A stretch of 38,298 bases of DNA from Nitrospirota bacterium (lineage in GTDB: Bacteria > Nitrospirota > Thermodesulfovibrionia > Thermodesulfovibrionales > JdFR-88), in NCBI GenBank assembly GCA_021789935.1, contig JAJYIR010000017.1, positions 12,112 through 50,409 of the forward strand, read 5' to 3'. The notes under the pieces are model-generated. The model did not search any database and was not told the origin of the DNA. It saw nothing but the letters and a program-made list of their open reading frames with translations. A program made the translations under genes and the position numbers. Position 1 is the stretch's first letter, and the number at the start of each line of letters is the position of its first letter. Below are positions 2,522-32,996 of this stretch, piece after piece.

Positions 2522-2553
2522 GGATATCGCAATAAAAAACCGGGATAAAAAAG

Positions 2554-3810: not shown

Positions 3811-3811
3811 C

Positions 3812-7332: not shown

Positions 7333-7340
7333 CTTAACTA

Positions 7341-7423: not shown

Positions 7424-7469
7424 TTTTTTATTTTTTCTTTCAAGTGCCCTGTCTTAGGGCCGCTGCACT

Positions 7470-11202: not shown

Positions 11203-11278
11203 GTGAATGCAGACTCCGGAAACAGGCGGTTTGTTTGATTTGCAGTTTTTTTTGAAAAATGGGAGACGTTTTTTTTAA

Positions 11279-18653: not shown

Positions 18654-18670
18654 TGGCACGCCTGTTGCAT
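18654..18670 (+). promoter_or_regulatory. Consensus sigma-54 (-24/-12) promoter of the methyltransferase/CoM operon
   Basis: TGGCACG-CCTG-TTGCAT matches the sigma-54 consensus (TGGCACG-N4-TTGCW) in every conserved position. GG at 18655-18656 and GC at 18667-18668 are separated by exactly 10 bases. The expected transcription start is about 18680, only three bases before the first ATG of the operon (18683). It faces the 13-gene operon and lies about 1.1 kb after a gene for an NtrC-type activator. Confidence 0.85.
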
Positions 18671-18682
18671 TATTCAATGATC

Positions 18683-19039
18683 ATGAAGATCGTACTTTTC
18701 TGCACTCACGACCCTGTGCTGGCCAAAAGCCTTTACGGGTTGCTGCGGCACGAAGGATACCAGGTGGAGGTAGCGGACCGTCTTATTCTGGCCGTGCAGA
18801 TGATAACGCTGAAGGCTTACAGTTTTGCCATTATTGACCCCGGGCCTTTCGGGCTTTCCACTGAGGACGCTGTCCGGGTAATGAAGTCGGTTTCCCCTGG
18901 CCTGCCGGTAATAGTTGTGGGCAAGGCCTCCGCGGGAGCGGTGAACATCGAAGCTCCGGTTGATCTGGAGGAATTCAAAGAGGCAGTTCATGCCGTCCAC
19001 GCAATTTCCGGCGGAGGGACGGGGAATAATATTTTTTAA
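18683..19039 (+). CDS. Degenerate response-regulator receiver-like protein
   Basis: The 118-aa protein has the secondary-structure pattern of a receiver domain (MKIVLFCTHDP, then EGYQVEVADRL, then FAIIDPGPFG, then LPVIVVGKA, then a final helix). An aspartate sits at the phospho-acceptor position (about Asp52), but the acidic pocket is reduced to one Asp, the switch Thr/Ser is replaced and the conserved Lys is missing (APVDL in place of KP). It may be a phosphorylation-independent receiver that binds a partner. It is the first gene of the sigma-54 operon, 15 bases before the first methyltransferase. The frame extends upstream to a GTG at 18653, but that would overlap the promoter. The ATG at 18683 is chosen (an ATG at 18677 is possible); neither has a ribosome site. 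Confidence 0.7.
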   Translation: MKIVLFCTHDPVLAKSLYGLLRHEGYQVEVADRLILAVQMITLKAYSFAIIDPGPFGLSTEDAVRVMKSVSPGLPVIVVGKASAGAVNIEAPVDLEEFKEAVHAVHAISGGGTGNNIF

Positions 19040-19054
19040 AAAAATTCAGGGGGC

Positions 19055-20086
19055 ATGATGACACCACGAGAGACGATTCTAAAGGCATTTGAAGGCGGCA
19101 AGGCGGACAGGGTGCCAGCCACCCTTTTCGGGGCGGGTATGTGGAGCATCAAGCGTTACGGGGCCTCTTTTCAGGAGCTTTCGGAGGACGCTGTCAGGAT
19201 GTCCGATATGCTTGTGGCCATGTCGGACGTCCTGCTCTGCGACATGGTATATGCGGGCTCCGGGTATAACAACTTCCATGCCTCGGCCATGGGCGGATCC
19301 ATAAAGTTCAGGGAGATAGGGGCGCCGGACCTTGAGGCCCCGCTGATAGCCACCGAGGAGGACCTTCAAAAGCTGGACATAAGCCGGATAGACGGCGACA
19401 AGGTAGTTGAGACCACCAGGAAGGCCACGAAACTCACCAATGCAAAGATCGGGAACAACTACGCCGTGACCCTTACCGCATGGGGGCCTTTCACCTTGGC
19501 GGCGCGTTTGGTGGGCGAAGAGACGATGATGAAGGCCACCTTCAAGAGACCGGCCTTTGTCGAGCAGGTGGTGGATTTCGCAACGCGGCTGCTCATCCGC
19601 CTTTATGAGCCGCTGCTGGAGGACGGGACCCTGGAGGTCGCAAGCCTGGCCGACCCGACCGCCTCCGGAGACCTGATATCGAAGAAACAGTTCGAAAGGT
19701 TCGCGCTCCCGTACCTGAGGAAGTTTACGGACTGGGCCAAGTCCAAAGGGGCCCATACCCTCCTGCACATCTGCGGCAACACTACGGACCGGCTGGATCT
19801 GTTCCCGGCAACCGGGGCAAGCTGTATTAGCCTGGACCACAAGACCGACATCGTAAAGGCCAGGGAGGTGCTCCACGGGAAGATGTGTTTCGGAGGCAAC
19901 GTGGACCCGGTGAAGATAATGCTCAACGGAAGCGTGCAGGATGTGGAGGAGGCATGCAAGGGGATAATACGCGCGGCCGGTATGGATGGCGGTTTTGTCC
20001 TTATGCCCGGCTGTGACATCCCGCCTACCGTGCCTTACGAAAATATTCAAAAATTGATTCAGGTCGCCAGGGAATGGAAATTTTAA
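19055..20086 (+). CDS. MtaA/CmuA-family (uroporphyrinogen decarboxylase-fold) corrinoid methyltransferase, copy 1
   Basis: The 343-aa protein belongs to the UroD-like methyltransferases. Archaeal members (MtaA, MtbA) move a methyl group from a corrinoid protein to the thiol of coenzyme M; bacterial relatives (CmuA, MtvB) demethylate chloromethane or aryl ethers. It has MTPRETILKAFEGGKADRVP at the start and the zinc-ligand set H-x-C-x(n)-C (His238, Cys240, Cys320; HICGNT and MPGCDIPPT). The substrate is not deducible from the sequence. Because cysteate synthase and ComDE share the operon, methyl-corrinoid:CoM transfer is a candidate role for one of the two copies. Start ambiguity: consecutive ATGs at 19055 and 19058 follow AGGGGG; the second has better spacing. 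Confidence 0.88.
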   Translation: MMTPRETILKAFEGGKADRVPATLFGAGMWSIKRYGASFQELSEDAVRMSDMLVAMSDVLLCDMVYAGSGYNNFHASAMGGSIKFREIGAPDLEAPLIATEEDLQKLDISRIDGDKVVETTRKATKLTNAKIGNNYAVTLTAWGPFTLAARLVGEETMMKATFKRPAFVEQVVDFATRLLIRLYEPLLEDGTLEVASLADPTASGDLISKKQFERFALPYLRKFTDWAKSKGAHTLLHICGNTTDRLDLFPATGASCISLDHKTDIVKAREVLHGKMCFGGNVDPVKIMLNGSVQDVEEACKGIIRAAGMDGGFVLMPGCDIPPTVPYENIQKLIQVAREWKF

Positions 20087-20155
20087 CTTACCGGAAGGAG
20101 GTGGCAAGGGGGGGCGGAAAGGGAAAGCCTTTTGGGCGATTTTTTCTGGAAAGAT

Positions 20156-20209
20156 ATGAGTAAAAAGCCGTCCGGTTTAAGGAAAACCGGAAAGAGAAGG
20201 AGAAAGTAA
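20156..20209 (+). CDS. Possible 17-residue basic leader peptide before the AhpD/CMD-like gene
   Basis: An ATG at 20156, preceded by GGAAAG, opens a short frame MSKKPSGLRKTGKRRRK whose TAA is directly followed by the ATG of the next gene. Nine of the 17 residues are Lys or Arg. A strong hairpin (20171-20191) lies inside it. It could be a translated leader whose ribosomes melt the hairpin, or chance. No homology is claimed. Confidence 0.25.
   Translation: MSKKPSGLRKTGKRRRK
20171..20191 (+). other. Intercistronic hairpin before the AhpD/CMD-like gene
   Basis: TCCGGTTT and AAACCGGA pair perfectly (8 bp) around the loop AAGGA. There is no U-tract. It lies 18 bases before the ATG at 20210 and just before the ribosome site GAAGGAG, so it may affect translation or mRNA processing. 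Confidence 0.45.
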
Positions 20210-20656
20210 ATGGCGGAACAGAAAAAGATGACCGTTGAAGAAGTAAACGCGTACATGAAGCAGAAGTGCGGGTTTGTACCCAGGATGTTCCAGATAATAA
20301 ACACCGTCACCCCGGAGCCGGGAAGGACATTTGCCGATTTCTACGAGAGCATATTCGGAGACGGAGCTCTTTCGAGAAAACATAAGGAGCTCATGTTCAT
20401 GTCCGGCGGGGTGAGTTACTGCTCGCCCAGGTGCATCATCCATGTAGTGCCGGCGATAAACGCGGGGGCCTCGTCCGGCGAGATATTCGAGGCGGCCGCC
20501 GTGGGGATGATACTTGCGGGCTTTGTGCCTGGCGGGCCAGGCATCCCTTATGCCTTCGAGTACGCGCTCAAGTGCCTTGATATCGAGGCGAAGTACAGGA
20601 AGGGCGAAAAATGGGAGTACCTGCCGCAGCCCAGGTTCGACCACGGTGTGTTTTGA
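20210..20656 (+). CDS. AhpD/carboxymuconolactone-decarboxylase-like protein
   Basis: The 148-aa all-helical protein resembles the CMD/AhpD family: a helix rich in Met/Gly leads into the motif VSYCSPRCIIH (Cys71, Cys75, His78), followed by AINAGASSGEI. Classical AhpD proteins have CXXC three residues before a His and act as thiol peroxidase partners. Here the first Cys and the His keep their spacing but the second Cys is shifted by one, giving CX3C. A redox or thiol-handling role is possible, which would fit an operon handling CoM thiol and corrinoid chemistry. The reaction is unknown. GAAGGAG precedes the ATG. Confidence 0.7.
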   Translation: MAEQKKMTVEEVNAYMKQKCGFVPRMFQIINTVTPEPGRTFADFYESIFGDGALSRKHKELMFMSGGVSYCSPRCIIHVVPAINAGASSGEIFEAAAVGMILAGFVPGGPGIPYAFEYALKCLDIEAKYRKGEKWEYLPQPRFDHGVF

Positions 20657-20674
20657 TTTAAAAAATGCGGGGAA

Positions 20675-20699
20675 GGGGCGCGCCCGCAGGGCGGGCCCC
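20675..20699 (+). other. Strong G/C-rich hairpin between the CMD-like and MtrH-like genes
   Basis: GGGGCGCGCCC and GGGCGGGCCCC pair in 10 of 11 positions around the loop GCA. No U-tract follows. It lies between the two genes and could tune the relative level of the upstream and downstream messages. Confidence 0.5.
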
Positions 20700-20736
20700 C
20701 CTCCGGTTCAAACCAGAAACCTGTAAAGGAGAATGC

Positions 20737-21690
20737 ATGTTTGCGTTTGATGCGAAGCAGAAGATTTTTAATATAGGGGGGATCCCGATAGGCGGGCCAG
20801 CCGGATGGAACCCGCCGGTCCTCATAGCTTCCATGTTCCACAACAAAGACCGGATACTCGTGGACAGGAAAGGCAATTTCGACAGGCAAAGGGCAAAGGA
20901 GCTTATAAAAAACCAGCAGGAACTATCCTGTTCCACCGGCATACCGGGTATGGTGGCGATGGTGGCCAACACCCCTGAGGAAGCAAAGGTATATATAGAT
21001 TTCTTTCTTGAGACGGCCCCGGGGGAAATGCCCTTCGGAATAGATATGTGGGAGGCCGGGAAACGGGCCAGGGCAACTGAATATATCGCCAGGCTTGGCG
21101 TTCAGGATAGATTCCTGTACAACAGCATCACTCCCTGGGACAAGGACATAAGGGGGCAGGTAAACAGGCTCAGGGACCTGGGCATCAGGAACGTGGTCGT
21201 GCAGGCTTTTGATGACAAGGACCAGACCCCGATGGGGAGGCTCAGGTCGCTGGAGAACATACTCGCGCAGGGGGCGGACGGGTTCGATACGGTGATAGTG
21301 GACACATCTGTCATGAACCTGCCCGCCACCTCATTGTCACTTGTGGCGGGCAGGCTGATAAAGGAGAAGTTCGGGCTTCCCTGCGGGGGCGCCTATTCAA
21401 ACGGCACACATATGTGGAAGCAGTCCAAGGAAATGTGGGGGCTGGAAGGGTTCAGGGCGATGGACGCGGTGGCCCAGGGCATGTCCACGGTACTGTGGAG
21501 CGATTTTAATTTTTACGGCCCCATCGTCACGGCGCCCAGGATATTCCCGGCGGTGGCAACCGCCCATATACTGCTTTCCACGCTTGTGTACGCGGAGACC
21601 AATTCCATCGCCCCCAATGAGGGGCTCCCGATAAGGAAATTCTTCCCGGATTTCATACAGAAGCTCCTTTCAGGGGAGGCCAGAAAATGA
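20737..21690 (+). CDS. MtrH-family pterin:corrinoid methyltransferase
   Basis: The 317-aa protein is a homologue of MtrH, the catalytic subunit that moves methyl between tetrahydromethanopterin and a corrinoid in methanogens. Bacterial relatives (for example MtvA of O-demethylation systems) use tetrahydrofolate. It opens with MFAFDAKQKIFNIGGIPIGG and continues with the TIM-barrel segments FGIDMWEAGKRAR and DTSVMNLPATSLSL. The ATG at 20737 has AAAGGAG upstream; the longer frame to 20665 would run through the hairpin. Function here is probably methyl transfer between the corrinoid protein encoded two genes downstream and tetrahydrofolate, in either direction. No membrane Mtr subunits are present in the window. 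Confidence 0.88.
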   Translation: MFAFDAKQKIFNIGGIPIGGPAGWNPPVLIASMFHNKDRILVDRKGNFDRQRAKELIKNQQELSCSTGIPGMVAMVANTPEEAKVYIDFFLETAPGEMPFGIDMWEAGKRARATEYIARLGVQDRFLYNSITPWDKDIRGQVNRLRDLGIRNVVVQAFDDKDQTPMGRLRSLENILAQGADGFDTVIVDTSVMNLPATSLSLVAGRLIKEKFGLPCGGAYSNGTHMWKQSKEMWGLEGFRAMDAVAQGMSTVLWSDFNFYGPIVTAPRIFPAVATAHILLSTLVYAETNSIAPNEGLPIRKFFPDFIQKLLSGEARK

Positions 21691-21745
21691 AAAATACAGA
21701 AAAAATAAAAATAAAAATCTTAAAAAATCAGAAAGGGAAAAGCCG

Positions 21746-22795
21746 ATGGTAGAGACGAGGACAATGACACCAAAGGAAAGGGTCCTGAAACTTTTCGCCG
21801 GAGAAAAGGTGGACAGGCCCCCCTGCTTCAGCGGGATGGGAAATGCCACGACTGAGGGGCTCGGGAGACTTGGATATAAATTCGCCGCCCTCCACGCGGA
21901 CGCGAAAATGATGGCCGGTGTGGCCGCCTCGACTTACAAGCTCACGGGGTTTGAGTGCGGTGTCGTTCCGTTTGACCTCTGTGTGGAGGCTGAGGCCCTT
22001 GGGTGTGAGATAAACGTATACGCCCATCTGGACGACAACATCCTTTATCCCACGATCAAAAAGAAGATAATCCATAACGAAGATGAGATGGGCATAAGCA
22101 TCCCTCCGGATTTTACGCGCAGGGGAAGGATACCGCTTGTGAAGGAGGCGATAGAGCTTGTGAAGGCGGACATCGGCAATGATGTGGCCGTAGGCACCTA
22201 TGTGCTTGGGCCCTTCACCCTGGCGGGGCAGATAATGGAGCTGAATGACCTTCTTAAACTCTCTTTCAAGAAGCCCGAAAAGGTTGGCAACCTCCTGGAC
22301 ACATTGGCTGATGCAATAGTGCTCTGCGCCAGGGAATTCGAGGAGGCCGGAGCCGATTATATAACCGTAAGGGAGATGGGGGCCACCTCGGACGTCCTTT
22401 CCCCAAGGGTGTTTAAAAACCTGATCCTCCCCTATCTTAAAAAGATATTCGGGCAGTTAAGGACGAATACGGTCCTTCACATATGCGGCAAAACAAACGA
22501 TATAGCCCCTTTCATGGTAGAGTCGGGCGCCTCCGCCATCAGCGTGGACCAGAAAAACGATGCGGCAGAGACCAAGAAGAAGATAGGCAATGCGCTTCTT
22601 TTCGGCAATTACGACCCCTATAACGTTCTTGTGGCCGGCTCTGAGACCAATGTCCGCCAGGCCATCAGGAAATGCATGGATGACGGCGTGGACGCGGTCT
22701 GGCCGGGCTGCGACATCTGGCCCACCGTGCCCATAGAAAACATAAAAGCGATGATGGATGAAGTTATTAATTACAGGAGGCCAGTTTCCAATTAG
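21746..22795 (+). CDS. MtaA/CmuA-family (uroporphyrinogen decarboxylase-fold) corrinoid methyltransferase, copy 2
   Basis: This 349-aa protein is the second UroD-fold methyltransferase of the operon. It starts MTPKERVLKLFAGEKVDRPP, has the zinc-ligand set His245, Cys247 (HICGKT) and Cys322 (WPGCDIWPT), and the FDLCVEAEALGC segment typical of the MtaA/CmuA group. It is clearly diverged from copy 1, so the two probably take different methyl donors or acceptors. It sits directly before the corrinoid protein gene (9-base gap), so the corrinoid protein is probably its direct partner. Which copy handles the substrate and which handles CoM or another acceptor is not resolved by the sequence. Confidence 0.9.
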   Translation: MVETRTMTPKERVLKLFAGEKVDRPPCFSGMGNATTEGLGRLGYKFAALHADAKMMAGVAASTYKLTGFECGVVPFDLCVEAEALGCEINVYAHLDDNILYPTIKKKIIHNEDEMGISIPPDFTRRGRIPLVKEAIELVKADIGNDVAVGTYVLGPFTLAGQIMELNDLLKLSFKKPEKVGNLLDTLADAIVLCAREFEEAGADYITVREMGATSDVLSPRVFKNLILPYLKKIFGQLRTNTVLHICGKTNDIAPFMVESGASAISVDQKNDAAETKKKIGNALLFGNYDPYNVLVAGSETNVRQAIRKCMDDGVDAVWPGCDIWPTVPIENIKAMMDEVINYRRPVSN

Positions 22796-22804
22796 GAGGA
22801 AATA

Positions 22805-23497
22805 ATGATAACGGAAGAAAAAAGGCAGGAGCTTTTGGACAGGCTCAGAAACTCTGTCATCCAGTATGACGAGGATGGGGCCAAGGAGGCCTCGAACGAG
22901 GTGATTGAGCTGGGGATGGACGCCAATGACGCCATCTTTAACGGAATGGTCAGCGGGATGGAGGAGGTGGGCAGGCTTTTCGAGGCGCAGGAGTATTTTG
23001 TGCCCGAGCTCCTCATGTCCGCCGATGCCCTCTATGCGGGCCTTGATATCCTGAAGCCCCATGTGAAGCAGATGGACCTTGGGGTGAAGGGGTCGGTCGT
23101 CATAGGCACGGTCGAGGGAGACGTGCACGATATCGGCAAGAACATAGTCAAGATGATGTTCGATGTGGCGGGCTTCACCGTCTATGACCTTGGAAGGGAC
23201 GTCCCCTTGGACAAATTTGTGGAGGAGCAGTTGAAAACGGATTCCGACCTGGTCTGCCTCTCGGCCATGATGACCACAACAATGGTCGGCATGAAAAAGG
23301 TAATAGACGACCTGAAGGCAAAAAACCCCAATGTCAAGATAATGATCGGAGGGGCGCCGGTTTCTTCCGATATAGCCGGAAAGTGGGGCGCCGACGGGTA
23401 TGCCAAGGACGCAAATAACGCACTGAAGGACGCCATCAACATGGTGAGCTCGCTTAAGAAGATGAAGGAAGAAGCGGAAGCAAGAAAGAAGGGATGA
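22805..23497 (+). CDS. Methyl-carrying corrinoid protein (MtaC/MtbC/MtvC type)
   Basis: The 230-aa protein has a four-helix B12-cap domain (about 1-90) and a Rossmann-like B12-binding domain (about 95-215). The cobalt-ligand motif DxHxxG is DVHDIG (His108), followed by LSAMMTTTM and the GG at 182-183 that holds the nucleotide tail. This is the central methyl carrier: the cobalt accepts methyl from one methyltransferase and donates it to another. The GGAGGAAATAATG ribosome site is good. It lies between a UroD-fold methyltransferase and the Fe-S/activase genes needed to keep the cobalt in the Co(I) state. Confidence 0.95.
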   Translation: MITEEKRQELLDRLRNSVIQYDEDGAKEASNEVIELGMDANDAIFNGMVSGMEEVGRLFEAQEYFVPELLMSADALYAGLDILKPHVKQMDLGVKGSVVIGTVEGDVHDIGKNIVKMMFDVAGFTVYDLGRDVPLDKFVEEQLKTDSDLVCLSAMMTTTMVGMKKVIDDLKAKNPNVKIMIGGAPVSSDIAGKWGADGYAKDANNALKDAINMVSSLKKMKEEAEARKKG

Positions 23498-23547
23498 AAA
23501 TTGGCGGCTGGAAAAATTGACGGCGCGGCCGCTTGCGGGCGTCTATT

Positions 23548-24276
23548 ATGAATAAATCCCTTTCTTATAAATTCGCCCAAAAGGAAGAAACCCTGGGGTC
23601 CGAGTTGAAGGCGGAACTCATTTCCGCGGGGGGCGCCATAGTTGGGTTTGCGTGCGTGCGGGGTGCGGCAAGCGGTGAGATAGCGCATCTGGAAAGCGCG
23701 GTCTCGATAGGGGTGGTAAAAAACCTGAATGAAGAGACGGTGAAACTCCTGCTGGCCCTTCAGAAAAAGGCCTCGGTGTTTCTTAAAGCCCTGGGGTACA
23801 GGTATTTTTGCATCCCGCCTGATTCGGACAGGGTAAAAGACACCTTCGCGTCCAGCCTCTACCCGCTCTTTACGCACAAAATGGCGGCGACACTGGCGGG
23901 ACTTGGCTGGATAGGCAGAAACGGGTTGCTCATAAACCCGGTGCACGGCCCGCGTCTTTCCCTTGCCACGGTGCTCACCGATGCCCCGCTGGAATCCGGC
24001 GCCCCGGTTACATGCAGCCGGTGCGGGGAGTGCACCCTGTGCATGGATTTTTGCCCTTCGCATGCGATCGCAGGCAAGGAGTGGTCCATGGGAGAGCCTT
24101 ATATCGAACTGGTCAAAGCGAAAAGATGCGCGGCCCATAAGGGGCGCGCCAAGGCGACAAAAGGAAAGCCGAACTGCGGCCTTTGCATAAACATCTGCCC
24201 CTACGGCAGGAGAGATTTTTCCGCGGCAGGGGAAAATGCCGGTGATGCGGGCAGTTGGAAAGTTAAATCGAGTTGA
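23548..24276 (+). CDS. QueG-like iron-sulfur protein with two 4Fe-4S clusters
   Basis: With the ATG at 23548 the protein is 242 aa. The C-terminal third has two cysteine groups, CSRCGECTLCMDFCP and CGLCINICPYG, together able to bind two 4Fe-4S clusters. The region before them (LAGLGWIGRNGLLI) resembles the QueG family. True QueG has a corrin pocket and reduces epoxyqueuosine; this shorter relative sits between the corrinoid protein and its activase, so it may give electrons to the corrinoid. That is inference. A TTG five codons upstream is an alternative start. The gene overlaps nothing but ends 25 bases before the activase start. Confidence 0.8.
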   Translation: MNKSLSYKFAQKEETLGSELKAELISAGGAIVGFACVRGAASGEIAHLESAVSIGVVKNLNEETVKLLLALQKKASVFLKALGYRYFCIPPDSDRVKDTFASSLYPLFTHKMAATLAGLGWIGRNGLLINPVHGPRLSLATVLTDAPLESGAPVTCSRCGECTLCMDFCPSHAIAGKEWSMGEPYIELVKAKRCAAHKGRAKATKGKPNCGLCINICPYGRRDFSAAGENAGDAGSWKVKSS

Positions 24277-24301
24277 AAGTTTTTTATATGGAGGAAACGG
24301 G

Positions 24302-26293
24302 ATGAAGAAGCACAGGGTTATTTTTCAGCCCTCCGGCAGGAGGGGCGAGGTCCCGGACGGGACCGGCCTCCTCGATGCCGCCAGGAACCTGGGGGTGGAC
24401 ATAGAGTCCATATGCGGGGGCAAAGGCACATGCGGTAAATGCAAGGTAAGGGTGGAGGAAGGCTTTTTCGAAAAAGACTCTATGGACTCGCGGATGGAAC
24501 ACCTTTCCCCGCTTACGGACGTGGAAAGGAAATTTTTAAAACCTTCGGACGGGCCCGGCATGAGACTCGCGTGCGCCGCCCGCGCGCTTGGGGACGTAAA
24601 AATATTTGTCCCGGAGAAATCCAGGGCGGGCAAGCAGGTAGTAAGAAAAGCGGCGGGGGAACTCCACATAAAGATCGACCCGGCGGTGAAGAAGTATTTC
24701 GTCGAGCTGGGAAAGCCCTCGCTCCATGAGTCCATCAAGGGAGACCTGGAAAAGCTGCTGGAGGCCCTGGAAGGAAATTACGGGCTGAAGGGGCTGTCCA
24801 TAGACTTTCCTGTCCTGAAGGACCTCCAGGACACTATAAGAAAGGGCAACTGGGGCGTTACCGTTTCGGTATGGAAGGGGCGGGAAATTATAAAGCTTGA
24901 GCCCGGTTTCGTGGAGGTCTCATACGGGCTTGCCGTGGATGTAGGCACCACTACTGTGGTCGGTTATCTTACGGACCTCGCCACGGGCAAGGTGATAGCA
25001 ACGGAATCCATGATGAACCCGCAGGTCCCCTATGGAGAGGATGTGATGTCCCGCATAACCTATGCCATGACCAACCAGGAGGGCGTGCGCAGGATGCAGG
25101 GTTCGATAATAGAGGGCCTGAATGAGATAGTGGATAATATAATTATAAAAGGGCGGGAGTCGGGTGCGCTGGCCGCCGAAGCCACCGGCGGGGGCGAGGT
25201 GATTGCAGATATGACCATAGTATTCAACACCGCCATGCACCATATATTTCTTGGTTTCAACCCGGAGCACATCGGGCGCTCGCCTTTCATCCCGGCCATA
25301 CAGCATGGACTGGACATCAAGGCCAGGGACCTTGGGATAAGGATAAACCCCGGCTCCTACATCTACGTCCTGCCCATTGAGGCGGGGTTTGTGGGGGCCG
25401 ACAATGTCGGGGTCCTCATAGCCATGGAGCCTTATAACATCGAAGAGAACGTGCTGATTATAGACATAGGCACAAATGGAGAGCTTTTGCTGGGAAACAG
25501 GGACCGGGTCTGCTCGACGTCCTGCGCCACAGGGCCCGCTTTTGAAGGAGCGCAGATAAAGATGGGTATGCGCGCCGCCCCCGGGGCGATCGAGAAGGTG
25601 AGGATAGACCCGGCTACAAAAGAGCCCGTTTATAAGGTAATAGGCAAAGAGGAGTGGAATACCCACATTGAGAAGATAGACGCCAAGGGGATTTGCGGCT
25701 CGGGCATCATAGACGCCATTGCCTGGATGTACAAGGCGGGCATCATAGACAAATCCGGCAGATTCGATATGACGGCGGAGACCCCCAGGGTGAGAAAGGA
25801 CCACGAAGGGAAACCCGAGTATGTCCTGGCTTGGGCCCGGGAGACATCCATAGGGGCAGACATAACGATAACCCAGTCCGACGTTCGCGCGCTCCAGCTT
25901 GCCAAGGGGGCGCTGTATGCCGGCGCCAAGCTTATGATGAGCAAAATGGGCATCGAAAAGCTGGATAAGGTAATGCTTGCCGGAGCCTTCGGAAGCTACA
26001 TAGACAAAGAGTCCGCCTTGACGCTGGGCATGTTTCCGGACTGCGCTCTGGACAATATCTATGCCGTGGGCAACGCGGCCGGTGATGGAGCGAGAATGGC
26101 CCTTGTGAGCAACTTGAAAAGGAAAGAGGCTGAAGAAAAGGCCAGGTGGGTGGAGTTCGTCGAGATAGCTATCGAGCCCGCGTTCGAGAAAGAGTTCATG
26201 CAGGCAATGCATCTGCCCCACATGAAAGACGGTTTCCCGAACCTTAAAAAACTTATTGAAAAAGAAACTCCCCATGTGATGATAAAAGGATGA
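24302..26293 (+). CDS. RACo-type corrinoid reductive activase
   Basis: This protein reactivates corrinoid proteins whose cobalt has slipped to Co(II). The 663-aa product has an N-terminal plant-type 2Fe-2S ferredoxin domain (Cys38, Cys44, Cys47, with a fourth Cys at 91 in MRLACAA), a linker, and an ASKHA-type nucleotide-binding C-terminal part (phosphate motif VDVGTTTV near 212; IIDIGTNGELLLGN near 400). The layout and length match RACo of acetogens. The ATG at 24302 has GGAGG with normal spacing; the upstream in-frame extension overlaps the Fe-S gene. Its TGA overlaps the ATG of the next gene (ATGA). Confidence 0.92.
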   Translation: MKKHRVIFQPSGRRGEVPDGTGLLDAARNLGVDIESICGGKGTCGKCKVRVEEGFFEKDSMDSRMEHLSPLTDVERKFLKPSDGPGMRLACAARALGDVKIFVPEKSRAGKQVVRKAAGELHIKIDPAVKKYFVELGKPSLHESIKGDLEKLLEALEGNYGLKGLSIDFPVLKDLQDTIRKGNWGVTVSVWKGREIIKLEPGFVEVSYGLAVDVGTTTVVGYLTDLATGKVIATESMMNPQVPYGEDVMSRITYAMTNQEGVRRMQGSIIEGLNEIVDNIIIKGRESGALAAEATGGGEVIADMTIVFNTAMHHIFLGFNPEHIGRSPFIPAIQHGLDIKARDLGIRINPGSYIYVLPIEAGFVGADNVGVLIAMEPYNIEENVLIIDIGTNGELLLGNRDRVCSTSCATGPAFEGAQIKMGMRAAPGAIEKVRIDPATKEPVYKVIGKEEWNTHIEKIDAKGICGSGIIDAIAWMYKAGIIDKSGRFDMTAETPRVRKDHEGKPEYVLAWARETSIGADITITQSDVRALQLAKGALYAGAKLMMSKMGIEKLDKVMLAGAFGSYIDKESALTLGMFPDCALDNIYAVGNAAGDGARMALVSNLKRKEAEEKARWVEFVEIAIEPAFEKEFMQAMHLPHMKDGFPNLKKLIEKETPHVMIKG

Positions 26294-26613
26294 TGGGTAT
26301 GACAAGGCTTACTGTTGTTTCAGGCGCCTGTGGTTTCTTTTGCGCGGTTACTGCGGAAAAAGGCCCGGACAGGAAGATGTCCGTTCGCCTGGAGAGCCAG
26401 TGCGAGATGCTCAGAAAGTTGGGCGAGGAGATTGCCGGCATGGACACCATGGCCGCCGCCTTTACTAATTTCGCGAACAATCCGGTGTACAAGGCCGCGG
26501 CCAAACACCTGAAGCACGTGGCCTGTCCCGTGCCGGCCGGCATAATCAAGGCTGTGGAGGTGGAGGCCGGCTTTTGCCTTCCGAGGGATGTAAACATCAA
26601 ATTCGAGAAATAA
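26290..26613 (+). CDS. Small cysteine-containing protein of unknown function (methyltransferase-associated)
   Basis: The 107-aa protein has cysteines at 14, 18, 38 and 84 in the contexts GACGFFC, SQCEML and VACPVPAG, then a terminal AIEVEAGFCLP-like helix. I recall similar short proteins (I believe family DUF6951) beside corrinoid methyltransferases in acetogens and methanogens, but cannot check. Its ATG overlaps the activase stop, so the two are translationally coupled. The conserved cysteines could bind a metal or a thiol intermediate. No function is claimed. Confidence 0.7.
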   Translation: MMGMTRLTVVSGACGFFCAVTAEKGPDRKMSVRLESQCEMLRKLGEEIAGMDTMAAAFTNFANNPVYKAAAKHLKHVACPVPAGIIKAVEVEAGFCLPRDVNIKFEK

Positions 26614-26618
26614 GAAGC

Positions 26619-26738
26619 ATGGAGATACGTGAAAACATGATACCCGGGAAGGAGATAGGGAACCGCCTTCCAATCAAAAATGCCGTTGGGCAGGGCGGAT
26701 CGCAGCGGCAGAAAGTTCATTGCCTGTCGGCGTTTTGA
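26619..26738 (+). CDS. Possible 39-residue peptide
   Basis: An ATG at 26619, six bases after the stop of the small cysteine protein, opens a 39-codon frame ending TGA at 26736-26738. The frame lies in the only sizeable gap before the HdrE-like gene. It contains one cysteine and no recognisable domain. The upstream AGAAG is a weak ribosome site at short spacing. It may be only a spacer. Confidence 0.25.
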   Translation: MEIRENMIPGKEIGNRLPIKNAVGQGGSQRQKVHCLSAF

Positions 26739-26758
26739 ATTGATTTGGAGTGATAATA

Positions 26759-27496
26759 ATGATGGCTGAGGGTTTTTTATATTTTCTGGCGATTGCCGCC
26801 CTCTTGGTCTATGCCTCATTCATAATCAGGACGGCGGTGCATCTGGCCTCCTGGTTGAAGGGGCCGTCGCCGGAAAAACCCGGACACGGTCAATCTCCGG
26901 GGGGCGGGAACAAAAATATCCGGGCTGCGGCCCTAGATGTGATTTTCCTAAGGAGGCTTTTCAGGGTGAACCGGGTCTTATGGGTGGGCGAATGGGTTTT
27001 CCACGTGAGTTTCCTCCTGGTGCTTATCAGGCATCTGAGGTACTTTCTGACCCCGGTGCCGCAGTTCGTCTGGCAGATGCAGTCCGCAGGCAGGGCTGCG
27101 GGATATGTGCTGCCCTTTTCGCTCCTTTATATTATCATCATTAAAGCGGCCGCAAACCGGGGCAGGCAGATGTTTGCCTACAATTATTTCCTTCTTGCGG
27201 GTTTTTTTCTCATAAGCTCTCTGGGCGCCCTTATGACCCTGTATTTTTACCCGGACGTGGTGGCGGTAAAAGAGTTCATGATGTTTTCCCTTGATCCTCG
27301 GGCGCTCTTCTCCGGGGCCCTGCCGGAAAGCCCATTGGCCGGCATGTCCGGGGAGGTGCCGTTTCTGGCCCATTTCCTGCTTGCGCTTACGATCCTGTTC
27401 TACCTGCCCACCCATATATTTGCCGCGCCTTTTACCATTTACAAGGCTAGGAGGCGGGATGAGTCCATGAAAGGGAATTTTTACCCCTCGCCATGA
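26759..27496 (+). CDS. HdrE-like membrane cytochrome b subunit (NarI/HdrE family)
   Basis: The 245-aa protein has about five transmembrane segments (residues about 3-25, 75-95, 110-130, 145-165 and 210-232) of the NarI/HdrE/DsrM type. Histidines positioned as haem b ligands occur in WVFHVSFLLVLIRHLRY and in HFLLALTILFYLPTHIF. HdrE of Methanosarcina passes electrons from methanophenazine to HdrD; the bacterial equivalent would use menaquinone. The ATG at 26759 follows TTTGGAG. The stop overlaps the HdrD-like start (ATGA), strong evidence that the two make one complex. Its size is close to HdrE; DsrM and TmcC are family alternatives. Confidence 0.82.
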   Translation: MMAEGFLYFLAIAALLVYASFIIRTAVHLASWLKGPSPEKPGHGQSPGGGNKNIRAAALDVIFLRRLFRVNRVLWVGEWVFHVSFLLVLIRHLRYFLTPVPQFVWQMQSAGRAAGYVLPFSLLYIIIIKAAANRGRQMFAYNYFLLAGFFLISSLGALMTLYFYPDVVAVKEFMMFSLDPRALFSGALPESPLAGMSGEVPFLAHFLLALTILFYLPTHIFAAPFTIYKARRRDESMKGNFYPSP

Positions 27497-28701
27497 ACAG
27501 CCAGGATTCTTTTTCTTTTACCAGATGTCTTTCCGGCGGGCAGCTTTTGGAACTGGACGCATGCACCCAGTGCGGAGAATGTCTGAAGTACTGCCCGGTG
27601 CAGGAGGTGACGGGGGACCGGTCCGTGTCCCCGCCGGAGAAAATACGGCATTTTAAAGAGTTCATAAAAAAAACGAGCGGCCTGAGGCGGTGGCTTTTCG
27701 CCGGGGGCAGGATAGATGAAAATCTGCTTCAGGATTTTACAAAAGCTGTTTTTGAATGCACTACGTGCGGGGCCTGTGGACAGGCATGCACCGTGGGCAT
27801 TCATACCCAGAGGCTATGGCCCATGCTCCGCCGGGAGATGGTCAAACGGGGGCTTGGGCCGGTAGGCCAGCAGAAGGAAACTCCTGAGGCCGTAAGCAGG
27901 ACCGGCAACCCTTACGGCAAGCCCTCCGGGGAGAGGTTCTCATGGTTTTTGGCCTCGGAGGCGAAGGTGGCGGAGAAGGCAAAGCTTGGCTATTATGCTG
28001 GATGCACCGGGGCCTATGAGGCAAAACCCATGGTCCGGGGGGACGTGCTTGCGCTCTCCCGTGTGGGGGAACCCTTTACGATGCTTCCCCCGGAGGAAGA
28101 GGTCTGCTGCGGGTTCCCGCTGTTCATTACGGGGCAGTTCGAGTTGCTTGAAGGGCTTGTGAAAAGGCTGGCCGGCGCATATGCCGCAAAAGGAGTGGAA
28201 ACGCTTATATGCTCCTGCCCCTGCTGCGTGAACATGATCTCCAGGGACTGGCCGTCATTTTACGGCAGGAGGCTGCCCTTCAGGGCCATGCACATTTCCC
28301 AGTATATAGACCGCGCGCTCCGGGACAGCAGGCTGTCCATTGCAAAGGCCCTTGACGAGAGGCTTATATATCACGACCCCTGTTACTTGAGCAGGGGTCT
28401 GGGCATAACTGAAGAGCCGCGGGATATACTTTCACGAATACCGGGGGCGAAGCTTCTGGAGTTCGAAAGAAACAGGACAAATTCTCGTTGCTGCGGCTCC
28501 GGGGGGGCCGCAAGAAAGGTGTTTCGTGACAATGCGTTGGCCATATTCAGGCTGGCCATTAATGAGGCCTGCGAGAAAAAAGCGGACAGACTTGTCCTTA
28601 GCTGCCCCGCCTGTTATTCCGTTGCAGGGGCTGCGCTGGAGGGATATGACAGGCAGGTTGATGTTGTGGATATAATGGAGCTTCTATCGGAGGTTTTTTA
28701 A
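27493..28701 (+). CDS. HdrD-like heterodisulfide reductase catalytic subunit with two CCG domains
   Basis: The 402-aa protein has two 4Fe-4S ferredoxin motifs (Cys24, 27, 30, 34 and Cys89, 92, 95, 99) and two CCG domains. CCG1 is Cys171-X33-CysCys(205-206)-X35-CXXC(242-245). CCG2 is Cys297-X35-CysCys(333-334)-X36-CXXC(371-374). Both are complete, as needed for the noncubane 4Fe-4S cluster that cleaves CoM-S-S-CoB in HdrB/HdrD. The length fits HdrD. The gene overlaps the cytochrome b gene and is followed by cysteate synthase after 4 bases, so it is part of the same unit as CoM synthesis genes. The actual disulfide in a bacterium is unknown. DsrK and GlpC-like roles are alternatives, made less likely by the context. 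Confidence 0.85.
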   Translation: MNSQDSFSFTRCLSGGQLLELDACTQCGECLKYCPVQEVTGDRSVSPPEKIRHFKEFIKKTSGLRRWLFAGGRIDENLLQDFTKAVFECTTCGACGQACTVGIHTQRLWPMLRREMVKRGLGPVGQQKETPEAVSRTGNPYGKPSGERFSWFLASEAKVAEKAKLGYYAGCTGAYEAKPMVRGDVLALSRVGEPFTMLPPEEEVCCGFPLFITGQFELLEGLVKRLAGAYAAKGVETLICSCPCCVNMISRDWPSFYGRRLPFRAMHISQYIDRALRDSRLSIAKALDERLIYHDPCYLSRGLGITEEPRDILSRIPGAKLLEFERNRTNSRCCGSGGAARKVFRDNALAIFRLAINEACEKKADRLVLSCPACYSVAGAALEGYDRQVDVVDIMELLSEVF

Positions 28702-28704
28702 GAT

Positions 28705-29976
28705 ATGAGCCATTTCGCAATTGTATGCAGAAAATGCGGGAAAGTGCTTGAGAACGCCTATTGCGCCTTTTGCGAGCATTGCGCAAACGCGCTCCTTGTG
28801 ACGCAGTACAGGGAAAAGGAATTTTCAGGCGGACGTGGGGAAGGCGCCTGGAAATTTGGCTGGCTCCCTGTCCATTCGCCGGGATTCGAACAGCCCGCCC
28901 CTGCCGTCTACCGGTCGGAAGGGTTTGCGCGGAAGATAGGCGTTCCCGAGCTGTACATCTGTTTTTGCGGGTACTGGCCGGAAAAAGGCGCGCATCTTCA
29001 GACCTGCACATTCAAGGAGTTCGAGGCCGCCGTGGTTATCCAGAACGCGAAGGAAAACGGCATGCCGGGACTGGTGGTGGCCTCCGCAGGGAACACGGCC
29101 AGGGCGTTTGCCCACCTTTCCTCCGTCTCGGGCTTCCCGGCGATTATCGTTGTGCCTTCGATGTGCCTTCCGGAGATGTGGTATCTGGATGAGGACACCT
29201 CCGGGGCCGTCCCCACCATAGCGGTTTCGGACGGAGACTACTCTGATTCCATAAGCCTGGCCAGGAATATATCCCTTGTGGCCGGAATGCCGTTTGAAGG
29301 AGGGGTGAAAAACATCGCCAAAAGAGACGGGCTCGGCATAGCCATGTTGGAGTCGGTCAATGCAATGGGAATGCTCCCGCGCCATTATTTCCAGGCGGTG
29401 GGCAGCGGGGCTGGCGCGATTGCGGCGTGGGAGATGGCCGAAAGGTTTTTAAAGGATGGGCGTTTCGGTGATACCCTGCCCGCCCTGCACCTTGCCCAGA
29501 ACCTTCCCTTTGCCCCCATGGCAAAGGCATACTGGAGGAAAAGCCGGGAGCTCTCACCTGCCGATACGGACTTCTCGCTCATAGGCGAGACCACAACCAG
29601 GGTCCTTTCAAACCGGTATCCGGCCTACGGAGTGATGGGCGGAGTGTTCGACGCGCTTGAGGCCGCCGGGGGTGCGATGTACGGGGTAACGAATGATGAA
29701 GTCTATGCCGCCATGGATTTATTCGAGGAGACCGAGGGGATAGACCTGGTGCCGGCGGCGGGCGTTGCGGCGGCCGCCCTTATACAAGCGGTTAAAAACG
29801 CCGCGGTAAAAAAAGGGAAAGTGGGGCAAGACGGGCCCGTGCTGCTTAATATAACGGGAGGCGGCGAGAGGCGGCTCAAAAGGGACATGGCGGTAAAGAG
29901 GGTGAGCCCTCTTTTGATATCGAAAAACGCCTCTGAAAGCGAGATGGAGAAGCTCATTCGCCATGCGGTGCGCTGA
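28705..29976 (+). CDS. Cysteate synthase (coenzyme M biosynthesis, Methanosarcina type)
   Basis: Cysteate synthase makes L-cysteate from O-phospho-L-serine and sulfite, the first committed step of CoM synthesis in Methanosarcinales. The 423-aa PLP enzyme is a threonine-synthase relative. It has an N-terminal Cys-rich ribbon (Cys8, 11, 20, 23, 26), the SGYWPE-like segment (CGYWPEKGAHLQ), the PLP lysine in TCTFKEFEA (Lys104), ASAGNTARAFAHLS and the glycine-rich LNITGGG. As I remember them, archaeal cysteate synthases carry these same blocks (GYWPERGA, CSFKELEA), whereas threonine synthases read SFKDRG at the lysine. It directly precedes ComDE, as in Methanosarcina. I am fairly sure of the family and less of the substrate. 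Confidence 0.85.
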   Translation: MSHFAIVCRKCGKVLENAYCAFCEHCANALLVTQYREKEFSGGRGEGAWKFGWLPVHSPGFEQPAPAVYRSEGFARKIGVPELYICFCGYWPEKGAHLQTCTFKEFEAAVVIQNAKENGMPGLVVASAGNTARAFAHLSSVSGFPAIIVVPSMCLPEMWYLDEDTSGAVPTIAVSDGDYSDSISLARNISLVAGMPFEGGVKNIAKRDGLGIAMLESVNAMGMLPRHYFQAVGSGAGAIAAWEMAERFLKDGRFGDTLPALHLAQNLPFAPMAKAYWRKSRELSPADTDFSLIGETTTRVLSNRYPAYGVMGGVFDALEAAGGAMYGVTNDEVYAAMDLFEETEGIDLVPAAGVAAAALIQAVKNAAVKKGKVGQDGPVLLNITGGGERRLKRDMAVKRVSPLLISKNASESEMEKLIRHAVR

Positions 29977-31114
29977 AGAGATAATCACAGATATGCTGCG
30001 GGAAGGCGGAGTGGATTTTACCGCAACCCTGCCCTGCGACAGGATAAAGGGGCTTTTGGGCCTGGTCTCCCGGGGTTTTTTCCATGTGCCTCTTACCCGC
30101 GAGGAGGAGGGCGTGGGCATATGCGCCGGGGCCGCGCTTGCAGGAAAAAGGCCAGCCATGTTCATCCAGAACTCAGGTGTCGGTAACATGATAAACGCCC
30201 TTTTGTCGCTCACCGGTTTTTACGGGCTTCCGCTTGCCGTTTTTGTAAGCCACAGGGGTATTTATAAAGAGAAGATCGCCGCCCAGGCGCCCATGGGCCT
30301 GAAGCTCCCCGGCATTCTTAAGGGAGCGGGGATAGGTTTTACCTCCATAGACTCCGCCTCTGATCTTGAGCAAGTTCCTAAGACGCTTGAAGATGTCTAT
30401 ATGAAAAACAAAATCCATGCCTTCCTCCTCTCCCCGGCCCTATGGGAAGGCATGGAGCTTAAAGTAGAGAGGAATGAGGGACCGGAACAGAAAAGATACG
30501 GGGCTGAATTTGACGATCTCGGAGGCGAAAAGGAAAAAATGGGCCTGGCAAGAAAACTTGACAGGTATGAGATGCTTTCCTCTGTCTGGGCGGCCCTTGA
30601 TGGCGCGGCGGTGGTTTGCAATCTCGGGTTCCCGTCGAGAGAGCTATACCACATAGGCCACAGGCCCTCGCACTTTTACATGCTTGGCAGCATGGGGATG
30701 GCCACGCCGATAGGCCTTGGGATCGCCCTTTCAAATACCTCGAAAAAGGTCATTGTAATAGATGGGGACGGGAGCCTTTTGATGAATCCGGGCACCCTGG
30801 CCACCGCCGCCTGTCTTTCAGGGGGAAACCTGACAATTTTTGCGGTCGATAACGGCGCCTACGGATCAACCGGAAACCAGCCGACGCTTGCGGCCGGATG
30901 CATAGACCTCGGGGCCGTGGCGAGGGGGTTCGGATTGGAGACAATAAAGGCGGCAAGGGAAAAGGACCTGATCGATGCTCTTGAGAAGAAAGCAAAAGGC
31001 CCGAAATTCATTCATGCCCTTGCCCTGCCGGGCAACCGGGATGTCCCCGTCATTCCGCTCGGGCACATGGAAATAAAACACCAGGTGATGGAGTTTTTGT
31101 TTTTGCGGGGGTAA
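29963..31114 (+). CDS. comDE: Sulfopyruvate decarboxylase, fused alpha/beta (ComDE)
   Basis: The enzyme decarboxylates sulfopyruvate to sulfoacetaldehyde in CoM synthesis. The 383-aa protein contains the ComD part (about 1-170; REEEGVGICAGAALAGKRP with the TPP-activating Glu, and QNSGVGNMINAL) and the ComE part (about 195-383; TPP/Mg motif GDGSLLMNPGTLAT with DNGAYGSTGNQPT). Fused ComDE occurs in Methanosarcina, split ComD and ComE in other methanogens; phosphonopyruvate decarboxylase is the close alternative. The neighbouring cysteate synthase favours the sulfonate, because transamination of cysteate gives sulfopyruvate. The start overlaps the upstream gene by 14 bases. No aminotransferase or sulfoacetaldehyde-thiolating gene is present in the window. 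Confidence 0.85.
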   Translation: MRCAEEIITDMLREGGVDFTATLPCDRIKGLLGLVSRGFFHVPLTREEEGVGICAGAALAGKRPAMFIQNSGVGNMINALLSLTGFYGLPLAVFVSHRGIYKEKIAAQAPMGLKLPGILKGAGIGFTSIDSASDLEQVPKTLEDVYMKNKIHAFLLSPALWEGMELKVERNEGPEQKRYGAEFDDLGGEKEKMGLARKLDRYEMLSSVWAALDGAAVVCNLGFPSRELYHIGHRPSHFYMLGSMGMATPIGLGIALSNTSKKVIVIDGDGSLLMNPGTLATAACLSGGNLTIFAVDNGAYGSTGNQPTLAAGCIDLGAVARGFGLETIKAAREKDLIDALEKKAKGPKFIHALALPGNRDVPVIPLGHMEIKHQVMEFLFLRG

Positions 31115-31238: not shown

Positions 31239-31832
31239 TTACAACTGCCCGGTTTCCCGGTATTTTTTTATATAGAGTTTAAGCGCCCTGTATATGAGCC
31301 AGTCCATGTCCAGGTTATTGTCTACCGCGATCTCGAGGAGGCTGTCCATGATCTCTTTTTCAAGCAGGGAAACGTTTTTTTCTTCCGGCAGATGGCCTTC
31401 TTTATGTATAGCGCCGCCTTCGGTTTTTTTCTTTCCGTGTTGCGGCCCCGGTTCCCCATGTTCCCGTTTAAGCAGGTCCGCCAGCGTGCCCACGTTTCCC
31501 TCCATGGCGGCCTGAAGCACGTCTTTGGGCACTTTCATCGGGGGCGTTCCGGTCTCGCTGCTGTTAGCCCCTGTTTTGTTTGGCGCATTGCCTTCCGCGC
31601 CTTCCATTTTGCCGGTGAAAGGGCCCCCCGACATGCCCATCATGATCTCAACCAGTTTCCTCGCGTGTTGGCCCTCCGGCATGTTCTCCTTCATGAACTC
31701 TTCCATCCTGCCCTCGGCCATGGCCTCGTGGAGCTTATCGAAGACAAGACCTCCCGTTTCCTCCTCCTGTGAAAAACCGGGTCCTGCTTTTTTTCTGGGC
31801 GGCTGCGGCAATGCACGTTCTTTTTTTGGCAT
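31239..31832 (-). CDS. Hypothetical protein, polar and low-complexity with helical ends
   Basis: The 197-aa protein starts at the ATG 31832-31830, with AGGAGG further upstream than usual; the frame extends 30 codons upstream without support. It has no signal peptide or membrane segment. The first 30 residues are Lys/Pro-rich, followed by a helical block with FDKLHEAMAEGRMEEFM, a Gly/Thr/Glu-rich linker, and a C-terminal helical segment LLEKEIMDSLLEIAVDNNLDMDWLIYRALKL. I do not recognise the family. It may be a small regulatory or partner-binding protein. It is convergent with ComDE and lies 120 bases after the binding-protein gene on the same strand. Confidence 0.6.
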   Translation of the reverse strand: MPKKERALPQPPRKKAGPGFSQEEETGGLVFDKLHEAMAEGRMEEFMKENMPEGQHARKLVEIMMGMSGGPFTGKMEGAEGNAPNKTGANSSETGTPPMKVPKDVLQAAMEGNVGTLADLLKREHGEPGPQHGKKKTEGGAIHKEGHLPEEKNVSLLEKEIMDSLLEIAVDNNLDMDWLIYRALKLYIKKYRETGQL

Positions 31833-31952
31833 TTTTATCTTTTGTCCTCCTGAGGGAGTATCAGCTCCGGATTTCCTAATGCAATGATAGCACAGGGGCC
31901 AATGATTTTTATGGCTGGGCATTCAGAAAAAACCTTGCCTCCCGCACCGTTT

Positions 31953-32996
31953 TCAATCCCCATGGATCACATGGGACGCAGAATAATGGTGGCCCGGGGG
32001 ATGCACCCTCCTGATGAATCCGGTTTCGAATATGTCTTCACGCGAAAACTCCCTGTCTTTACGCGTCCCAACTCCGATATAGCCGAGCCTCTTAAGTGCG
32101 CCCGCAAAATCCATGGTTGTCTTCATATACTCTTCCGTGAGCTGGGCGCAGTATTTTGGGGACATATTGATGGCCTCCAGGACAAACTCCTCATCCGCAA
32201 CGCCTGTATAGGAGGAAATCCTCCTGGCGCATTCACGAGGGTTTTCCCTGAGTTCGCGGGAGGCCTCTTCATGCTTGACTAAAAACTTTTCAATCGCATC
32301 GGGGCGGGATTCAATGAACTCCATGCCGGCCACTATCCCATAGCTCGGGTTGCCAGGCCATATAAGGCGGGGCGGATATAGCGTCTTGCCGCCCGCATAA
32401 CGCTTGACGGCGACGGCAAGCGAAGGGGTGCCTATGGCCGCCTGGACCTGATTTTTTGAAACGGCCTCCGTAATCGCGTCGGCCCATTTGAAATTTACGA
32501 CTTCGACAGATTTTGCAAGTCCATAGCGCGCCAGGGCATCTGAAAGTATTACGTCATGTATGGAACCCTTGCCGGGCACGCCTATCTTCAAACCTTGGAG
32601 CTGGCCCAGTACCTCATCAAAATCCCGTAAATCGGGATAGCCTTTGAGCCCTTTAGCGCCCGCCATTACGGTGCCTTCCATATGTCCGCCGGCCACGCAC
32701 TTTATCCTTACGCCCTGGTCGATGCCGATAATGGCGGGGGGGAGCCCTATGTAGGCGATGTCGATAAGCCTTTGCCTGAAGGCGTTCACAATATCGGGGC
32801 CGGTGGCGAAAAGCTGCCATTCAAAAAGCGCCTCCGGTTTTCTTGCCATCAGAAGCATGGCGGTATGGTAAAAGGTAGACAGGTGTCCCACCCGGACCAC
32901 CCCCCCCTTCGGAGACCGGGCATCAGGGCGGCTTCCCGATTTGCCGTATTCGCCCGCTTTACGCTCGCTATCCATCAGATAGACGTATTTTAGCAC
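31953..32996 (-). CDS. SsuA/NMT1-like periplasmic-binding-fold protein without signal peptide
   Basis: The protein (347 aa from the GTG at 32996; ATG at 32975 is an alternative) shows the bi-lobed binding fold of nitrate/sulfonate/taurine/thiamine-precursor ABC transporter subunits: VVRVGHLSTFYHTAMLLMA, the LFATGPDIVNAF segment, YIGLPPAIIGID, and LKIGVPGKGSIHDVIL. The N-terminus is charged and has no export signal or lipobox, and no permease or ATPase gene is adjacent, so it may be a cytoplasmic sensor or enzyme of this fold. A sulfonate ligand would be attractive next to the CoM operon, but nothing in the sequence proves it. Confidence 0.7.
   Translation of the reverse strand: MLKYVYLMDSERKAGEYGKSGSRPDARSPKGGVVRVGHLSTFYHTAMLLMARKPEALFEWQLFATGPDIVNAFRQRLIDIAYIGLPPAIIGIDQGVRIKCVAGGHMEGTVMAGAKGLKGYPDLRDFDEVLGQLQGLKIGVPGKGSIHDVILSDALARYGLAKSVEVVNFKWADAITEAVSKNQVQAAIGTPSLAVAVKRYAGGKTLYPPRLIWPGNPSYGIVAGMEFIESRPDAIEKFLVKHEEASRELRENPRECARRISSYTGVADEEFVLEAINMSPKYCAQLTEEYMKTTMDFAGALKRLGYIGVGTRKDREFSREDIFETGFIRRVHPPGHHYSASHVIHGD

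Follow-up and report, generated by a model that had tools for sequence, protein, structure and literature searches.

Introduction

The locus described here raises the question of whether a bacterium that lacks methyl-coenzyme M reductase (Mcr) could make coenzyme M (CoM) and use it for methyl transfer. CoM is generally regarded as characteristic of methanogens and of archaea that oxidise alkanes, and a few aerobes that oxidise alkenes have a separate route to it; in Xanthobacter it is used in alkene and epoxide metabolism. The stretch of DNA analysed, 38,298 nucleotides from a Nitrospirota bacterium (contig JAJYIR010000017.1, positions 12,112 to 50,409; hereafter the window), carries an operon in which genes of the CoM type are linked with those for corrinoid methyl transfer and an HdrDE-like complex. 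On balance, we lean towards reading it as an operon under sigma-54 control that serves CoM-dependent corrinoid methyl transfer.

Conservation of the operon

18654-31114, plus strand: operon, from the sigma-54 promoter through ComDE

The operon genes (18683-31114) are all on the plus strand and are tightly packed, with neighbours mostly abutting or overlapping. The original prediction, made from the sequence alone, had described such an operon, and family searches recovered every gene it named. It had not named the AhpD-like protein, the Fe-S protein, DUF6951 or the TauA-fold gene downstream.

The cysteate synthase was used to scan 84,980 species genomes. Short exact peptide matches were required, and the scan therefore recovers near relatives only. 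It gave 59 loci: 57 in Nitrospirota, Thermodesulfovibrio(nia) or unnamed bacteria, one in a Thermoleophilia bin and one in Methanoculleus. Genomes of over 50 other species carry the same operon, two of these genomes being recorded as chromosomes. Gene order and strand are identical in all 26 loci with DNA spanning from methyltransferase 1 (MT1) to ComDE; this means that the arrangement is not due to chance. All 12 core genes are present in 22 of these loci and 11 in the other four. The window-type HdrE is absent from L017, L032 and L051, where a different NarI-type cytochrome b adjoins HdrD, and the Fe-S protein is the only core gene missing from L050. The linkage of CoM-type genes to corrinoid methyl transfer and HdrDE thus extends over a phylum.

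The genome of the window is bacterial and belongs to the Nitrospirota (2.47 Mb, 100% complete, 0.61% contaminated), as do its relatives, some of which are titled Thermodesulfovibrionia. Archaeal contamination or a chimeric contig, which would make the operon an artefact, is ruled out by this genome quality, by the recurrence in other species, including the two chromosomes, and by the cysteate synthase tree, which gives a bacterial-only clade. We give this explanation practically no chance, and the bacterial nature of the operon, claimed at the outset, stands.

Three further candidates were rejected. The Thermoleophilia bin Kmv30 (L050; Actinomycetota; operon at 1167-13782) was considered as evidence for another phylum. 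Its cysteate synthase falls inside the Nitrospirota clade, which points to transfer or misbinning, and it was set aside as independent evidence. The relatives of L051, an uncultured bacterium, come from Nitrospirota genomes already sampled. In the archaeal genome G488, presumed to be Geoglobus, an MtrH gene is present (L152, 6344-7222), but no other operon gene was found near it within the 184 kb covered.

The distribution was also followed in 396 Nitrospirota genomes. Cysteate synthase is present in 61, the AhpD-like gene in 65 and both in 60; the TauA-fold gene is present in 63, and in 58 together with the other two. The Fisher p value for co-occurrence (6e-64) is descriptive only, shared ancestry being ignored. 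The occurrence is patchy: within the window's own family, and likewise within families f2, f3 and f4, some genera have the operon and others do not.

As the original prediction had supposed, no description of this combination was found in the literature searched (open-licence papers). Each module has known relatives; the combination itself appears undescribed, and there is a fair chance of a new pathway.

Methyltransferases and associated proteins

19055..20086, plus strand: MT1, MtaA/CmuA-family zinc methyltransferase (PF01208)
20665..21690, plus strand: MtrH-family methyl-tetrahydrofolate (methyl-H4F):corrinoid methyltransferase (NF002142, 326 against a cut-off of 287 bits)
21746..22795, plus strand: methyltransferase 2 (MT2), methylcobalamin:CoM methyltransferase type (NF004889, TIGR01463)
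22805..23497, plus strand: corrinoid protein (B12-binding domains)
24236..26293, plus strand: AcsV/RACo-type corrinoid activase (family search)

MT1 and MT2 are predicted to be MtaA/CmuA-type thiol methyltransferases with an HxC...C zinc site. The putative zinc ligands are invariant in both (His238, Cys240 and Cys320 in MT1; His245, Cys247 and Cys322 in MT2). MT2 aligns over its full length to MtaA of M. mazei (4ay7) and scores above both cut-offs (NF004889, 283 against 244 bits; TIGR01463, 254 against 235). MT1 is of the URO-D/MtaA type, aligns to the same protein over its C-terminal two thirds and is under the cut-offs for methylcobalamin:CoM methyltransferase and for mtaA_cmuA (TIGR01463). 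In the corrinoid protein, the DxHD motif is kept and His108 is invariant, with a TIGR02370 score (205 against 215 bits) slightly below the cut-off. Near the operon, a gene that by eye resembles cob(I)alamin adenosyltransferase was seen in five loci (L017:13660-14214, L025, L045, L047 and L052).

Three further proteins are encoded between or beside these genes.

20210..20656, plus strand: AhpD/CMD-like protein (PF02627)
23533..24276, plus strand: two-[4Fe-4S] protein related to the C-terminal region of QueG and reductive dehalogenase (family and residue comparison)
26290..26613, plus strand: DUF6951 (PF22263)

The AhpD-like protein ranks with the most conserved of the operon (65-97% identity); Glu60, Cys75 and His78 are invariant, Cys75 being its one invariant cysteine. 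The AlphaFold 2 (AF2) model of DUF6951 has a predicted local distance difference test score (pLDDT) of 90, and its best structural match is IscU (Foldseek E 0.018). The superposition on IscU (VIA-align) gave a Z score of 6.7, below the safe level of 8, with a root-mean-square deviation of 3.3 over 91 residues. Cys14, Cys38, His76 and Cys79, invariant in the alignment, resemble the ligand set of IscU. Because Z is under 8, an IscU/SufU-like fold, with a possible role in sulfur or Fe-S delivery, is kept as a hint. Near DUF6951, L044 (6512-8062) and L016 (5788-7245) carry an inserted gene that resembles one for a methyl-accepting chemotaxis protein, a possible sign that the cells move towards the substrate.

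The make-up of this set could also be read as catabolism of a methylated or halogenated one-carbon (C1) compound: MT1 would demethylate the compound, MtrH would hand the methyl group on to H4F, on which it would be oxidised, and CoM or a comparable thiol would play an accessory part. The mec cassette of dichloromethane-degrading Firmicutes shares CmuA/MtaA-type and further methyltransferases, a corrinoid protein, a pterin-binding methyltransferase, reactivation genes and two-component regulation (PMC9768040). Nine loci carry a FolD gene inserted between DUF6951 and HdrE, which ties the operon to the H4F pathway, and the sigma-54 two-component control described below suggests induction. However, the genes listed for the mec cassette (PMC9768040) do not include cysteate synthase, ComDE or other CoM biosynthesis genes, HdrDE, the AhpD-like protein or DUF6951, and the broad occurrence of the operon in subsurface lineages speaks against a rare pollutant as substrate. 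This catabolic role seems unlikely to us.

Putative coenzyme M branch

28705..29976, plus strand: cysteate synthase (TIGR03844, 447 against 325 bits; tree)
29963..31114, plus strand: ComDE, probable fused sulfopyruvate decarboxylase (TIGR03845, TIGR03846)

Threonine synthase-like stretches of the window's own genome reach 35-36 bits with TIGR03844. In a tree of 66 rows, the bacterial cysteate synthases form one supported clade beside those of methanogens, four divergent archaeal sequences fall in neither clade, and the genome's own threonine synthases sit apart at the end of a very long branch. Score and tree together exclude misannotation of a threonine synthase, and the original assignment as cysteate synthase is borne out. 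ComDE passes for the alpha part (TIGR03845, 181 against 148 bits) and lies at the cut-off for the beta part (TIGR03846, 218.3 against 221.5). It fails the phosphonopyruvate decarboxylase model (198 against 312 bits), in line with the preference for ComDE expressed earlier, and is 44-47% identical to archaeal ComDE proteins adjoining cysteate synthase.

Of the three known CoM pathways, two belong to methanogens and the third is bacterial, from Xanthobacter (PMC12068725). In the type 2 (L-phosphoserine) pathway of Methanosarcina, cysteate synthase and fused ComDE are adjacent and in the same order as here (PMC12068725). The present operon differs in being bacterial, in forming a separate bacterial clade and in lacking MMP16/ComF and Mcr; instead of MMP16/ComF, the TauA-fold protein shares the distribution of the operon. 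Xanthobacter Py2 is likewise a bacterium expected to make CoM, but its route begins with phosphoenolpyruvate and relies on a different set of genes (PMC12068725).

The archaeal pathways finish with MMP16/ComF (PMC12068725). This family (PF01837) was found in 0/50 operon-bearing bacterial genomes (the window's own and 49 relatives), whereas the control, Methanoculleus, has two copies, one of them directly 5' of cysteate synthase. The operon thus does not hold the complete archaeal type 2 pathway. McrA (PF02249) is absent from the window's own genome, which leaves it without the mark of Mcr/Acr-type methanogenesis or alkane oxidation. The original prediction had proposed looking for the remaining CoM genes and for Mcr, and these searches showed the known CoM synthase and Mcr to be absent; it had not foreseen the missing last step, for which a candidate replacement was found. 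Targeted searches, which sampled the wider C1 pathway of the window's genome, found CdhC/acetyl-CoA synthase and DsrA, so that a sulfur-metabolising, Wood-Ljungdahl background is likely.

Some loci have a full ATP-binding cassette (ABC) importer inside the operon (L043, L063, L132 and L133). Its binding protein is over the cut-off of 163.5 bits for SsuA, the aliphatic sulfonate family, in L063 (196) and L043 (194). ComDE is absent at the L043 locus, residues 35-370 of cysteate synthase are deleted in L063, and both genes are absent at the loci L132 and L133, whose genomes gave no match for cysteate synthase. Biosynthesis is therefore incomplete in 4/4 importer-bearing loci, although single assemblies can err. 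This suggests that an imported sulfonate can substitute for the synthesised one.

The TauA-fold protein

31239..31922, minus strand: small conserved protein, linked downstream
31956..32897, minus strand: cytosolic TauA/SsuA-fold protein (NMT1/TauA/SsuA fold), candidate for the last CoM step

The small protein is present in 19/58 loci and had no family match in the family search. The second gene is often on a different contig from the operon; its shared distribution therefore goes beyond mere linkage. TauA and SsuA substrate-binding proteins are exported and adjoin an ABC permease and ATPase. The present protein starts at the fold, with no signal peptide, is not flanked by transporter genes either in the window or in L129, and scores 79 bits against the SsuA cut-off of 163.5; it does not belong with these binding proteins. 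The AF2 model (pLDDT 87) matches SsuA (Z 29.6), TauA (28.5), Thi5 (25.5), MqnD (22.1) and the desulfinase DszB (17.9). The fold is common to TauA/SsuA, Thi5, MqnA/MqnD and DszB; unlike these, the present protein combines the lack of a signal peptide with its own invariant Cys/His/Asp/Glu set. His11, Cys67, His72, Glu74, His114, Asp115, His209, Glu210, Cys250, His299 and His304 are invariant in bacteria and archaea, which makes it more enzyme-like than carrier-like.

A TauA-fold gene of 38-40% identity lies directly 3' of ComDE in three archaeal loci (L128-L130) and is absent from that place in a fourth archaeal genome, G469. Two of the three archaea with the gene at that place are presumed to be Geoglobus acetivorans and G. 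ahangari (G479 and G488), and G469 is presumed to be Ferroglobus placidus. All four have a single PF01837 protein, of the long type (about 500 residues). Three methanogen-type genomes have a second, shorter PF01837 protein, which adjoins cysteate synthase in two of them. The TauA-fold gene therefore seems to stand where MMP16 is missing, and we infer that it may encode a CoM-making enzyme.

The product of the sulfonate branch could instead be a compound other than CoM, such as isethionate, taurine or a new sulfonated thiol. In that case, the TauA-fold protein would act on or sense this product, and the methyltransferases would use it, or H4F only. The lack of ComF/MMP16 in all 50 genomes agrees with this, as does the retention of cysteate synthase and ComDE in the presumed Geoglobus and Ferroglobus, three of these archaeal genomes having the TauA-fold gene. 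Geoglobus ahangari is reported to be without Mcr (PMC4600277). On the other hand, both methyltransferases keep the thiol-activating zinc site, MT2 is above the CoM methyltransferase cut-off, HdrD has both CCG domains, and CoM is the simplest sulfonate that doubles as a methyl-accepting thiol. A product other than CoM is accordingly judged improbable.

HdrDE

26750..27496, plus strand: HdrE/DsrM-like membrane cytochrome b (weak DsrM match)
27493..28701, plus strand: HdrD-like protein with two 4Fe-4S sites and two complete CCG domains (PF02754 twice)

HdrE has four invariant histidines (His85, His95, His208 and His222). In HdrD, the 4Fe-4S sites (C24-C34 and C89-C99) and the CCG motifs (C171-C205C206-C242..C245 and C297-C333C334-C371..C374) are invariant in 51 sequences, so that the two complete CCG domains seen originally are intact. 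The best NCBIfam match of HdrD is TfrB for CoM and coenzyme B, under the cut-off. With CCG motifs, 4Fe-4S sites and an adjacent cytochrome b bearing four haem-ligand histidines, the pair has the predicted features of HdrDE. A second HdrE/HdrD-like pair, its HdrD 29% identical, lies just 5' of the operon's pair in L024 (5813-8000) and L035 (5500-8000).

HdrDE might carry electrons from another donor to menaquinone, for example from a methylene-H4F reductase, CoM being used for methyl transfer only. This would be compatible with CoM synthesis and methyl transfer. The relatives of HdrD (DsrK, GlpC and LdhH) have diverse partners, and two genomes without HdrDE at the locus, G352 (L133/L135) and G290 (L134/L136), keep the methyltransferase set. 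In these two genomes, however, cysteate synthase and ComDE are missing from the locus together with HdrDE, and the TauA-fold gene is missing as well. Furthermore, HdrE, HdrD, cysteate synthase and ComDE stay a constant block, and HdrD keeps both CCG domains complete. Another donor is possible, but we rather doubt it.

Regulation and upstream genes

14150..16186, plus strand: PAS/GAF sensor histidine kinase, probable regulator of the operon (Pfam)
16194..17534, plus strand: sigma-54-dependent response regulator, AtoC/NtrC type (Pfam, NCBIfam)
18654..18669, plus strand: sigma-54 promoter TGGCACGCCTGTTGCA, full -24/-12 consensus, the sole exact match in the window
18683/18689-19039, plus strand: degenerate receiver-like first gene, weak (Pfam Response_reg, E 0.0098, below cut-off)

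A homologue of the histidine kinase is also upstream of the operon in L131, and the response regulator is likewise 5' of it in L009 and L131. A sigma-54 site with at most two mismatches is found at about -400 from MT1 in 10/15 sequences with upstream DNA; none was found upstream of the operon in the Thermoleophilia bin (L050). The first gene begins a few bases 3' of the promoter and has homologues in seven further loci. This arrangement suggests that the operon is under sigma-54 two-component control, pointing to induction. Further upstream (window 9853-14031), a cluster of multihaem cytochrome c type with TPR/thioredoxin-like proteins was seen by eye; it suggests periplasmic or extracellular electron transfer.

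Proposed mechanism

Gene identities, catalytic motifs, synteny, co-occurrence, the absence of ComF (50 genomes) and McrA (own genome) and the importer exchange are established; all of the chemistry below we infer from them. Cysteate synthase would form cysteate from phosphoserine and sulfite, a general aminotransferase would convert it to sulfopyruvate, and ComDE would give sulfoacetaldehyde. The cytosolic TauA-fold protein might then replace the methanogen ComF and yield CoM, with the IscU-like DUF6951 perhaps as sulfur or Fe-S donor to it. Alternatively, sulfide alone might complete the last step in a sulfidogenic cell; an abiotic reaction of sulfide with sulfoacetaldehyde to CoM has been reported (PMC12068725).

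MtrH, the corrinoid protein and MT2/MT1 would shuttle methyl groups among methyl-H4F, the corrinoid and CoM, possibly with a second methylated thiol, and the activase would rescue the Co(II) corrinoid. This set would do in soluble form the work of the methanogen Mtr complex. With methanogen Mtr and HdrDE it shares MtrH-type transfer to a corrinoid, a CoM-type methyltransferase, conserved histidines in HdrE and two CCG domains in HdrD; unlike methanogen Mtr, it has soluble MtaA-type enzymes and an MtaC-type corrinoid protein, H4F is expected in place of tetrahydromethanopterin, and there is no Mcr. HdrDE would exchange electrons between menaquinone and a CoM-containing disulfide. Methyl flow could go either way, towards oxidation of a methyl compound or towards methylation of CoM.

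Several points weigh against CoM-dependent methyl transfer. The known CoM synthase is found in none of the 50 bacterial genomes, and the window's genome has no Mcr to use methyl-CoM. Proteins like HdrD also act in pathways of lactate, glycerol-3-phosphate and sulfite, MtaA-like genes are also carried by bacterial methanol operons for which no CoM pathway is reported (PMC11206085), and the co-occurrence counts take no account of shared ancestry. The mechanism is least certain on what becomes of methyl-CoM and on which partner HdrDE has.

A wider form of the proposal would be an Mcr-free, phylum-wide respiratory or one-carbon pathway on self-made CoM, with soluble methyl-H4F:CoM transfer, HdrDE linked to menaquinone, and a new TauA-fold CoM synthase common with non-methanogenic archaea. 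We put this forward tentatively, as going beyond what we would ourselves expect.

If the proposal is true, CoM-based C1 chemistry would extend to a widespread bacterial phylum, the operon being present in about 15% of the sampled Nitrospirota species. It would also suggest that CoM chemistry works without Mcr, and it names a candidate for an alternative CoM synthase. The conserved cluster in many uncultured Nitrospirota points to an unrecognised one-carbon pathway that is directly testable with single purified proteins.

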